From Tetraselmis striata (lineage: Eukaryota > Chlorophyta > Chlorodendrophyceae > Chlorodendrales > Chlorodendraceae), in contig VCJN01002915.1 of the NCBI GenBank assembly GCA_006384855.1, forward strand, positions 1 through 64,000: 64,000 bases of DNA. The letters are read 5' to 3'. The notes below the pieces were generated by a model. It made no database searches. It saw nothing but the letters and a program-made list of their open reading frames with translations, and was not told the DNA's origin. Numbering within the stretch: the stretch's first letter is position 1; every line of letters begins with the position of its first letter. The translations under genes were made by a program, and so were the position numbers. Below are positions 5,039 through 44,540 of the stretch, piece by piece.

Positions 5039-8000
5039 CTAACGCTGCTGCAGCTCAGCGTTCCAGCAACCAGGGTCCATGCAGACAAGTAAACGATATG
5101 GGGAGACAGGGAGACTGGGAGTGGGGGGGGGGGGGGGGGGGGGGTGAAGTGAAGTACAGAAAACAAAGGTCTTTTTGGAAGAGTGTATATAAACACGGAC
5201 TATGCGTCGATATACATGCTGAAGACGAGCGTGCGAAATTTGGAAGAGGTAAGGTGATTGCCTGAATTGACCTACTATTATTGATGATCCCATGACAACA
5301 CATGATGCATTATCTTATTCTAGCCACATATGTGACCCATGGCTTACTGAAAATGAGAGTGTATTGCATGATAGGTAGGAAAAATCGTAGGTGACTACAT
5401 CATCCGATATATTTAGAGCATAGGCTAATCATTGCGCTGATGCGCTCCAAAACCACGGAACAGGTCGTAACGCCCACCCATGTCGTTGGATTAATGCCAT
5501 TATGTTTACATACGCCGATCCACTAATATCGCCATCCTGCCATCACAGCCCCCCTCCCCGGGTACACACATACTGTTTGTAGAAATCCCCAATAAACACC
5601 TACTTTACATTCCAGTGTATCCACATGTATCCCAACTCATTTAAAGATATGGTGCGACCAACGACGAACTCATCACCAGTGAGGGAGGCAAATGGCGGGG
5701 GGGGGGGGGGGGGGGGGGTCACCCTCCAGCGTACGTCCACGTGGGGTGCTTCCATTGGCGCTTCAGCATCTTTGGATACTTCTTCTGAAGGACGTCGGCT
5801 GAGGGAGGCGGCAGACAGCGCAATCTCGTTCAAGTGCAGCACCAGGAAAATGGTTGTAGTATGCACTCATAGCAGTATATACATCGTATAGCCTGCCACT
5901 ATATTTCCTGATTAGGTTTCCGAGTTGCGAAACAAAGTTGTTTTGTACACACGAGTTACATATCCTACATCCATTTGTGGTTTACTTGGTAGATTCTCCT
6001 CATTCTTCAGATGGTTAATAAGGATGATATATATACATATATACATATGCATATATATATATATGTATTTATATATAAATATGAACATCCCTATATAAAT
6101 ATATATGAATATATACATGTACATATATACACATATATAGTGAACGCAGTGCGTGCTGCTCAATCTATCTGTTAGATGACAAATAGCGGTGCACTTACTA
6201 CAACTTAAAGCCCTTTTGATAGGGAGTCACTATATTTGATGAATTAAGGGCAGTGTCGTACCGGGCGGCTTGCCCTTGAACCCTCTGTACTTCTCCCAGT
6301 ACCACACCCGGAAGTTGTTGCCAGTGCCGCCAAAGCCGTACAGGTTGACGTGCTTGCAGACGTGGAGCAGCACCCCCAGCGCGCGCATGCCGGTGGACGG
6401 CATTGTCTGCGCGGCGGAGTAACGCACTCAGGAGAACTTCCGTGTTGAGACCATCATTCAAAGCATTGCATCATCGGTCCGAGCCGCTGCTAGGCACGAG
6501 CATATGGGCATTTCATGCGCGTAAGCGCGGCGTCGCGAGTCAGTTGTAAGAAAAATGCATATAAACTACCAATATTAAATACGTCCACAACTCTTCGCAA
6601 CAATGCCCCATTCATCAATCCATCTATAAGGGGCGCCATCATATGCCCTCCCCATGCCCATGCTCTAACGTGTAACGGTTTAAATAGTTCGACGACGCGA
6701 TTTCATTTGATTTTATTCATGTTGACGTGTCCAATTCATAGAGGCCTTCTAAATCTGGAGCACTATGCTTTAATTGTACCTATATTTTTTAATGTACAAA
6801 TGGATGCTACTACAGTTGCAGTTTAGTGGTAGGCATGCCCACCTGCCTCGCCCGAAAGGGGCGCTCTATCCAGGAGTCGAAATATGGGTTGAGGGGGTGC
6901 ATCTTCTTCTTCAGCATGTACGCCAGCTCCGTGGACTCCATCGCAGTGTCGTTGCCAGGTGGGCAGAACACCATCCTGGGCCGCGGGGGGGGGGGAGGGG
7001 GGGGGGGGGGGAGACTCAGCTATCGCGGTGCGCCACTCGACACATGTCAGCACGCGTGCGGCGAAAGCCTCACCCAGTACGGGCCATCCGCTAGGTGGTC
7101 AAGTGTGTGGCAGATCACGGCATCCCTGAGCTCAATCGTTCCTCATGCACGCCAAGAGTAAAGTTTAACACAACCCCAAAAACCTGTAGGTTCTACATGC
7201 TGTAGGCCCGTCACATAGTGCATTGATTCCAATCCATTACCCTAAGAATCCGTGCTTATTTACATGGCCCATCGTCTGCTATTGATTTAGTCCCACATTG
7301 TGTGCAGTATTGTATGGTTGGCTGGCTGACTGACTGCATCCCACCACTATTATATGGAAATTGAGTACGAAAATGAAACTTCCGGCCCGGCCGTGGTCTC
7401 AAGCGCTGTCAAACTTGTAGCCGGGGGCAAGACTATGTGGGGAAGATCGGCATGAGGTTGGCGCCGAAACCCCCTCCCATTCTCTGTGAAGTACCAACAA
7501 TACGTTGCGCAGGATATGTCACGCGGCGAAACTGGGAGGGCCGCCGAAAGCGGAACGAAATGTCTGAAAGCGAGGTTTCATCTCAAGATTGAGAGCGTGA
7601 CATAAATTTGCGCACTGTTTTGGGCGCTACGTATTAGAGAATCGCCAGCAAGATTGCAGTCTCGCATAAATGTGCGACAAGTGCAATTCTCTATGCAGAT
7701 CAGTGTGACAATTGCAACGGGAGGTCCGCATGCCGGGTTTGGCATCATACATGGCGGGTGGCGCACGTACCCTTTGACTTCCACCGGGCTGCAAAAGCGG
7801 CCAATCACGGAGTCCTCGTGGCTCTGCGCAGGCGTGGCGCGGCGGCAATGTAAGACTAGTGATGCAGCATTTCGGGGACACAAGGGAATACGGTGCAATA
7901 TACACAAAATGTCGCCATATTTCGTGAAAATGTGTAGTGTTTGTGGCTTCATGTTGTGTTTGTGGTATACATGTTGGGAGCAATCACAGTAGTACACAAT

Positions 8001-42900: not shown

Positions 42901-44540
42901 GCTCGGATGGCTTTGCTTGTGCGGCAGATCGCCGAGATGGCGCGCCAGGTGGAGGCCACCCACGCGCAGCTGGAGAGCCTCACGCTGCAGATGAATGCGA
43001 TGAACAAGAGGGAGGCGATGGAGCAGCTGGGCGGCCCGCTGGCGCTGCTCAAGGTGCGCCCCAGTTATCATCTTGCCAACCTGCAGCGGAGACCCCCGCC
43101 CCCCCCTCTTTCAGACTATGTGACCTGACTCGTGCCTCACCACGAGTAGCACCACAGATACCGCTGCCTTATGCGGGTGTACTTCAGGCTGTCACCAGCC
43201 TGTTTGGGGCCTTTCCTGTAAGTGGACTTAATCTCTGGAAATGTTTAGCGCACTCGCACCATTGGGGCTGGAAACTGAGCGATCGCGCATTGAGTGGTTT
43301 GGTGACCGCGGCGATTTGTGTCCATCAGGAGATGTTTGAATAGGGCCGACTGTCCAAATGGATATAGAAATGCGATGGGACCACCTGATCAATCACCAGT
43401 GTCTAGTATCCGAGTTGCCCGCAAGAGATTCGGCAGCATGCGGTCGGAGAAGGGCGTTGGCGATATCAGTGGGTGGCCGCCATGCATTGCGACTACGCGG
43501 TTTTAGTATACTAGCACGTATGTCGTCATTTATTTTTAACGGCGGTGCCTGGCCGTGTTTAACTTTGCCACCATGCTAGCGTGGTACTCGTACGGTATGG
43601 TACGGTAAACCTGATTTCTCGTCCTGGTACTACCAGGACGATACATTATACGTACGTTAATTGTACTCATCGTACTATTAACGCGTATGTAGGAATTTTT
43701 AACTTAATGTCATCGGCGAACATCAGTCCGCGTTCCTGTATTGCTATCCACTTTGAAACAAGGTACATAAGCTTTTCCTGAAAATCAGCGCCCGTATTAC
43801 ACGAACCGCAGTTATCCGGAACTGAGCGGGCACACGCTCTGCTGGGACAGTCTTGGGTTTACCTGCGCCTAGCTGGCTCTCCTCACCTGCCTCTGCCCGT
43901 TTGTGCGCTCCGCAGGTTCAGTCCACCAAGGTCTTTGAGTACTGCGCCCGCGAGGCTGCCCAGATCTTTGGAGGCAGCAGCTACGTGCGCGGTGGCCAGG
44001 GCGAGAAGGTGCGGGACGAACCCCCCCCCCCCCCCCCCCCCCACACACACATACACCCCCCCCCCTCTTTTCTCTCCCTTCCCTACCTCAATCATGTGCT
44101 GCTGGCTCCAGTGATGGCCTAGCAGTGGGCCCACCGTATCGTGTGCATGCCCCGCTGCCTAATCCCCACTCGTTGCTGCCTTGAGGCCTCGCTGTGCTTC
44201 ACAATCACGAAGGCTCTGGCTGTCTGGGTGCTGACCTGGTACCCTGCTGTGTGCCCTCGCCCCCCCGCTAGGTGGAGAGGCTGTACCGCGAGGTGCGTGC
44301 GTACGCCATTCCTGGTGGCAGCGAGGAAATCATGCTGGACCTGGCTGTGCGCCAGGTATTGCCCCCCCCCCCCCCCCCCCCCCCCCCGGTGCCGGACCCA
44401 ACTGCTCTCGGAGTCTCTTGTGACTTTTTCAGCTAAACAGAGTGAAGCTGGTGGAGCGGCGGTGGTGAAACAGCAACCTTCGTGGCATTTGTCGGTCGCA
44501 GGCGATGAAGCCGGCTCAGGCTCCGCGTGCCAAGATGTAG
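39917..44540 (+). CDS. Acyl-CoA dehydrogenase, 9 exons, 430 aa, C-terminal -AKM
   Basis: Acyl-CoA dehydrogenases are FAD enzymes that introduce the alpha-beta double bond of fatty acyl-CoA. Exons (plus) are 39917-40081, 40920-41447, 41584-41643, 42087-42209, 42699-42773, 42928-43053, 43916-44008, 44272-44355 and 44502-44540. All introns are GT-AG and all are phase 0. Landmarks are an N-terminal helix domain ([38 protein letters not shown]), [35 protein letters not shown], the beta domain ([12 protein letters not shown]), [35 protein letters not shown] and [20 protein letters not shown]. The region that is IYEGT in medium-chain enzymes reads IPGGSEEIM, so the catalytic Glu is not at that place. 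The frame is open upstream of ATG 39917, and fungal relatives carry an N-terminal cytochrome b5 domain, but none is seen here. The -AKM end fits a variant peroxisomal signal. Confidence 0.95.
42288..42566. repeat. (TATATG)n hexanucleotide microsatellite in acyl-CoA dehydrogenase intron 4
   Basis: About 37 near-perfect TATATG units follow two copies of a TGTCTAGCATATATATTATG unit. It accounts for more than half of the 489-base intron. Open frames reading Met-Tyr repeats through it are artefacts. Confidence 0.95.
44021..44042. repeat. Poly-C tract after exon 7 donor of acyl-CoA dehydrogenase
   Basis: A 22-base C run starting 12 bases inside intron 7, followed by CACACA and another C run. Sense poly-C. 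Confidence 0.95.
44362..44387. repeat. Poly-C tract after exon 8 donor of acyl-CoA dehydrogenase
   Basis: A 26-base C run starting 6 bases inside intron 8. Sense poly-C. Confidence 0.95.

Follow-up and report, generated by a model that had tools for sequence, protein, structure and literature searches.

Sense-strand poly-C runs at intron starts in Tetraselmis striata, probably a mild C skew amplified by neutral homopolymer expansion

A 64,000-nucleotide stretch of the chlorophyte Tetraselmis striata (assembly GCA_006384855.1, contig VCJN01002915.1, positions 1 to 64,000; hereafter the window) contains long pure G/C runs that an earlier note described as intronic, strand-polarized toward poly-C on the sense strand, and placed next to splice sites. 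We find that this polarity is real and general, yet narrower than was claimed, since it is confined to the starts of introns. The explanation that we favor, and regard as reasonably probable, is that intron starts carry a mild C skew, which yields the poly-C polarity when amplified by neutral homopolymer expansion. Special poly-C-binding machinery may therefore be unnecessary for the polarity.

Generality was assessed on introns predicted outside the window. In the 224-Mb assembly (2903 contigs), loci were located by kinesin and KH_1 matches, together with four stretches of dynein heavy-chain genes. They were analyzed by a small trained gene finder whose codon score masked homopolymers and whose splice weights covered only positions −3..+6 and −5..+2. 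The first settings over-split genes (815–1185 introns) and were abandoned. The final output comprised 178 introns in 37 loci, from which we kept the 134 introns (28 loci) with both flanking exons well supported and dropped 44 with a flanking exon scoring below 8. All of these introns are predicted from sequence, and the sample is small. Loci that overlapped or were presumed twins had been excluded beforehand (L036, L038, L041, L044, L054, L056, L057, L059, L060, L062, L063, L070, L072, L075 and L077), needlessly so for L038 and L041, whose identity to their partners is just 80% and 73%, making them paralogues. The splice motifs obtained from the gene finder were AG/GTGCGC at donors and GCAG/G at acceptors; exon pairs from the kinesin matches (21 pairs, 4 of them without a solution and several others doubtful) were used only for viewing splice motifs.

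The 134 introns hold 37 C and 8 G runs of at least 12 nt on the sense strand, or 42 and 10 when runs of at least 10 are counted; an earlier count that included twins and flanks gave 48 C and 21 G runs of at least 10 in 39 oriented loci. By zone, the runs of at least 12 divide into 21 C and 1 G in the first 30 nt, 14 C and 7 G in the middle (not significant, P = 0.19), and 2 C and no G in the last 30 nt, where uniform placement of the 37 C runs would put 4.2 in each terminal zone. A C10 run lies within the first 45 nt of 26 of the 134 introns. When the letters of all runs of at least 8 were swapped before prediction, 133 of the 134 introns were recovered with nearly the same split by original letter (C 20, 14 and 2; G 1, 7 and 0). 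Thus, the gene finder does not create the polarity. Proximity to the 3′ splice site, which had been claimed as well, is not supported as a general trait, since only 2 of the 37 C runs come within 30 nt of it; this sample likewise does not show the C-rich tract ahead of 3′ splice sites that marks PCBP/hnRNP K-type regulation. Long C and G runs are also scarce over the last 40 nt of introns (loci L031–L082; 2 seen, about 12–20 predicted from composition), as if the branch point and the acceptor spacing were protected.

Independently of gene prediction, we counted C14 and G14 words beside the donor 8-mer AGGTGMGC throughout the assembly, bearing in mind that not every such 8-mer is a real donor. 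At 2–20 nt past the motif there are 492 C14 and 75 G14 words (reversed-motif controls 55 and 31), and at 41–59 nt there are 166 and 149 (controls 18 and 19). The words are polarized at the shorter distance and near-equal at the longer one, and the polarity is therefore a property of intron starts and not of the transcript as a whole. Only the forward and reversed-motif control counts were used, as the other two counts, judging from the listings, slide along a run and overcount. C14 words as a whole have no strand excess in the genome (364205 forward, 365644 reverse). A looser motif, AGGTGNG, gave 1101 C14 (control 201) and 1553 G14 (control 933), and its G count, taken at face value, contradicts the polarity. 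This motif was confounded, since AGGTGGGG and AGGTGTGTG continue into G-rich repeats and such repeats make up many of the listed G matches; AGGTGMGC was used in its place. On the acceptor side, C14 occurs 451 times at 2–20 nt ahead of CGCAGG (control 247); this count covers the C version alone and gives no polarity. The polarity thus stands at intron starts, outside the window too, and falls for introns generally, as the mid-intron counts and the near-equal words at 41–59 nt indicate. For the same reason, the idea that it could predict gene orientation holds only for runs beside a donor.

Beneath the runs lies a skew in base composition. Among the 87 of 134 introns that are free of runs, the C fraction is 0.44 at +7..12, 0.39 at +13..20 and 0.34 at +21..30, and it reaches 0.26 in mid-intron; G stays at 0.24–0.27 throughout, and T is not raised. 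Likewise, when introns with a C8 in their first 60 nt are set aside, the 97 that remain have more C (0.38) than G (0.27) over +7..+30 (P = 4e-6). This bias is anchored to the 5′ splice site, as is expected of an intronic splicing enhancer. At the other end of the run-free introns, C+T makes up only 58% of positions −15..−8 against 53% in mid-intron, so there is no strong polypyrimidine tract ahead of the 3′ splice site. Selection may act on this C skew rather than on the long runs. We infer that the cause of the skew is a weak splicing-related preference, and this is the uncertain step of our explanation. Selection or a transcription-linked mutational process had been proposed to underlie the runs, with PCBP-like KH splicing factors and template-strand G-quadruplexes given as examples. 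A process acting on the whole transcript does not fit the loss of polarity at 41–59 nt, and no selection on the long runs themselves is needed; the proposal is supported in part, and the skew may be selected.

Our explanation has two layers. The lower one is the C skew over the first ∼30 nt of introns, anchored at the 5′ splice site and seen in introns free of runs. Upon it, a strand-neutral process would lengthen C or G tracts to 12–30 nt wherever they are tolerated; this is presumably replication slippage, taking over once a tract reaches ∼6–8 nt. Expanded tracts would be purged from coding exons. Because the number of seeds would scale with a high power of base frequency, a skew of 1.5-fold could become a polarity of ∼10–20:1 among long runs beside donors but fade to little or nothing farther into the intron. 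The long poly-C runs would then be by-products, whose number is roughly accounted for by local C frequency and a strand-neutral excess, so that they require no selection of their own.

Several observations are consistent with this amplification. Runs of at least 8 exceed the expectation from local composition by similar factors for both letters: 18 for C in the 5′ zone (95% interval 11–28), 31 for C in the middle (18–50), and 26 for G in the middle (12–47). The density of C runs in the 5′ zone relative to the middle, a ratio of ∼9.7, equals the ratio of C frequencies to the power 6.5 (calculated by hand), and that power predicts ∼14 C runs for every G run at intron starts, compared with the 19 and 1 observed. 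Coding exons contain a single run of at least 8 in 60,857 nt, although the factor found in introns would give ∼190–300. Run length also varies between alleles. Four contig pairs (L035/L036, L043/L044, L058/L059 and L071/L072) are 96–98% identical over their length, suggesting that both haplotypes are present in the assembly, and in these presumed haplotype pairs homologous runs are often unequal (for example, 22/24, 18/26, 25/21 and 24/32); one homologous run aligned at equal length, and one site in L043/L044 is a complex difference. Assembly errors may alter run lengths, but they should not yield a polarity relative to genes. An excess over composition that is similar for C and G, allelic length variation, and near absence from coding exons are what neutral homopolymer (microsatellite) expansion is expected to leave.

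Other features of the same data weigh against this explanation. A model with one amplification factor for all 12 intron bins is rejected (P = 0.007). The misfit comes mainly from the paucity of runs in the last 40 nt and their abundance in mid-intron; the 2 runs in that terminal stretch compare with 12 predicted by the pooled factor and 20 by the mid-intron factor. With an exponent of 8 and the mid-intron factor, C runs of the 5′ zone fall below prediction (19 against 34, P = 0.003), and with exponents of 10 or 12, corresponding to run lengths, the 5′ excess is clearly lower than that of mid-intron. The fit therefore hinges on the assumed seed length, and seeds of 4–5 nt would leave a residual 5′ enrichment. 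C tracts of 4–5 nt are enriched only ∼2.7-fold at the starts of the 134 introns, as against ∼tenfold for tracts of at least 12. Finally, the G14 words near donors are half as frequent as those at 41–59 nt, so some avoidance of sense G runs near donors is possible.

It is useful to contrast this explanation with one in which the C-rich intron start is itself read by the splicing machinery. A PCBP-like KH protein or another factor would bind there and aid U1/U6 at donors that depart from the U1 optimum, and the long runs would be overgrown tracts kept by selection; we consider this rather unlikely. The broader proposition, that in this lineage 5′ splice sites are marked by a C-rich element downstream of them, which a PCBP-like KH protein or a factor associated with U1 would recognize, with giant poly-C as the overgrown form, has in our judgment only a modest chance of being right. 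The anchoring of the C gradient at the 5′ splice site does favor such an element. So does U1, whose canonical 5′ end, ATACTTACCTG, fits the donor GTGCGC imperfectly and could leave room for a helper; there are two U1 snRNA genes (L083 and L084), both with canonical 5′ ends, though the donor consensus is GTGCGC and not GTAAGT. Over −3..+5, donors followed by a run have lower scores (P = 0.03), and in run-free introns donor score declines with downstream C (rho = −0.23, P = 0.02). However, the link is lost on exonic positions alone (P = 0.60; rho = −0.14, P = 0.17) and on +3..+6 alone (rho = 0.009, P = 0.93), so that compensation for weak donors, which no part of the donor tested alone bears out, is not robust. 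C runs in the 5′ zone also have no excess over the composition prediction. As to the reader, a KH gene on contig C4, closest to PCBP2, speaks for the element. It carries three KH_1 matches, two of which have PCBP2 as their best solved relative, with KH proteins of other specificity scoring nearly as well; the KH gene on C1064 is closest to FUBP2/KSRP, and that on C187 to Nova-2. An expansion of PCBP-like genes had been suggested as a sign to look for. One gene thus resembles PCBP2, but KH_1 matches are few (18 on 11 contigs), and to call the family not expanded is a judgment made with no relative counted. Moreover, mammalian PCBPs work chiefly ahead of 3′ splice sites in the portion of PMC4797308 considered here. 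A KH-read C-rich element is therefore possible and stays putative.

The remaining alternatives appear weaker still. Selection against sense G runs by donors, where RNA G-quadruplexes or pairing could hide the 5′ splice site, would leave C runs behind, and the halved frequency of G14 at 2–20 nt fits this. Yet C14 is itself threefold commoner at 2–20 nt than at 41–59 nt, G content is not lowered at the starts of run-free introns, and replacing C runs by G runs leaves the predicted pairing of the 5′ splice site unchanged (unpaired 0.38 and 0.38, P = 0.73, 21 introns; G-quadruplexes lie outside the model). We hold this selection to be improbable. The same calculation led us to reject a structural role in which the C zone keeps the donor open. 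A transcription-linked mutational asymmetry, arising from transcription-coupled repair, R-loops or template-strand G-quadruplexes, would favor sense C runs along transcripts. It could account for a strand bias relative to transcription, seen both in predicted introns and in the genome-wide motif counts, and for the nonsignificant lean of mid-intron runs toward C. Nevertheless, the polarity is nearly absent 41–59 nt from donors, in DNA that is equally transcribed, and it is present in internal introns of long dynein genes (L080–L082), which makes this asymmetry quite improbable as the cause. Introners or other inserted elements could have carried poly-C in, and the position of runs near intron starts would suit them, but no two of the 134 introns match at E = 1e-3 (blastn, runs masked) and run starts spread from +3 upward instead of being fixed. 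An origin by insertion is therefore highly improbable, and introner-derived introns, recognizable by sequence similarity among introns at different sites, were rejected for this sample.

Comparison with known systems, drawn from portions of the cited reports, places the pattern apart from each of them. Vertebrate G-quadruplex motifs at 5′ splice sites prefer the non-template strand (enrichment 5.56-fold, against 2.38-fold on the template; PMC9065059). Like the runs described here, these are homopolymer-like tracts near 5′ splice sites with a strand preference, but the sense base in T. striata is C, the mirror image. PCBP/alphaCP splicing also involves C-rich intronic tracts next to splice sites, and a PCBP-like KH gene is present here; there, however, the motif lies ahead of the exon, at the 3′ splice site, for 644 of the 749 enhanced exons (PMC4797308), whereas in T. 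striata the tracts come after 5′ splice sites and few occur near 3′ splice sites. On the sense strand, Daphnia introns favor T-rich motifs (PMC3152781), so that motif density is again unequal between strands, although the part of that report considered here contains no splice-site anchoring. In human gene bodies, long tracts are oriented relative to transcription as well, and the poly-T bias grows with tract length; poly-G tracts have no similarly pronounced asymmetry in the results considered, and the orientation is explained there by repair, as opposed to splice-site-anchored composition here (PMC7181645). The literature searched, which left most subscription journals outside, yielded no description of poly-C on the sense strand at the start of introns.

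A further parallel is the U-rich 5′ intronic element bound by TIA-1/Nam8. It too is a pyrimidine-rich stretch right after the 5′ splice site, but the base here is C, not U, and the reader here is only putative.

Returning to the window, all 11 pure G/C runs of the earlier note were found in place, and Pfam upheld the identities and strands of the three genes that carry them: Glyco_transf_29 (GT29, minus strand), a fumarate-reductase-like gene with FAD_binding_2 and Cyt-b5 (minus), and a gene with acyl-CoA dehydrogenase domains (plus). Relative to these genes, 10 of the 11 runs are poly-C on the sense strand. By eye, six begin at most 26 nt past a plausible 5′ splice site (5697, 10239, 10608, 18071, 44021 and 44362), in agreement with what was claimed. 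The claims fare less well in two respects. Of three runs said to lie near a 3′ splice site, those at 6985 (9 nt) and 18892 (21 nt) do, and that at 20853 does not. All 11 runs had been described as intronic, but the gene finder, which predicted 20 introns in the window, placed introns around only 4 of the 11 runs (18071, 18439, 18892 and 44021). For 10608 and 44362 the reading frame is open across the run as polyproline, so that their intronic status rests on judgment and is unproven.

The GT29 gene has five runs, all read from the minus strand. A sense C22 (5123..5144) has no splice site resolved nearby. Another C22 (5697..5718) begins 4 nt past a plausible donor, GAGG/GTGA, and neighboring exons match Pfam PF00777. 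At 6985..7011, the run is in fact C15-T-C11, interrupted by one T, and lies ahead of the plausible acceptor GCGGCCCAG/GATGG. A C20 (10239..10258) starts 26 nt past the plausible donor GACGG/GTGAGG, and a C25 (10608..10632) starts 10 nt past GGCAG/GTCGGC, near the signal peptide. In the fumarate-reductase-like gene (minus strand), the predicted intron 17972..18098 contains a sense C19 (18071–18089) from 9 nt past its 5′ splice site. The predicted intron 18219..18665 holds the sole opposite run, a sense G18 (18439–18456) that lies 209 nt away from the 5′ splice site, in mid-intron. In the predicted intron 18871..19237, a sense C21 (18892–18912) ends 21 nt ahead of the 3′ splice site, and a sense C13 (20853..20865) lies ∼85 nt ahead of the likely acceptor of the FAD_binding_2 exon. 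In the acyl-CoA dehydrogenase gene (plus strand), the predicted intron 44009..44271, with Pfam matches on its flanking exons, carries a C22 (44021–44042) 12 nt after the 5′ splice site and a second run, C10, at 44056. A C26 (44362..44387) lies 6 nt past CAG/GTATTG, at the end of the C-terminal domain.

An intron of the same gene includes a tandem array of 46 TGTATA copies (42286–42566). Farther along the window, an open frame on the minus strand (55784–58087) has reverse transcriptase and weak RNase H matches and is bracketed by inverted copies of a repeat family (50216–53279 and 59034–60106), with three direct copies on one side and arms 93–99% complementary on the other. Together with the surrounding repeats, it looks like a retroelement flanked by repeats. 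On the plus strand, adjacent open frames at 60502–63296 match the Astacin (M12A peptidase) and NIDO (nidogen-like) domains.

More broadly, a mild base skew anchored at splice sites can turn into a dramatic strand polarity of homopolymers, since run density climbs with a high power of base frequency. Strongly polarized repeats are therefore weak evidence that they are themselves under selection, and small biases in composition can be read, magnified, from long runs. If a C-rich downstream element does mark 5′ splice sites in this lineage, it would be the mirror image of the G-run enhancers of vertebrates. Overall, T. striata has an unusual C-rich intron start, the cause of which is open to direct test.

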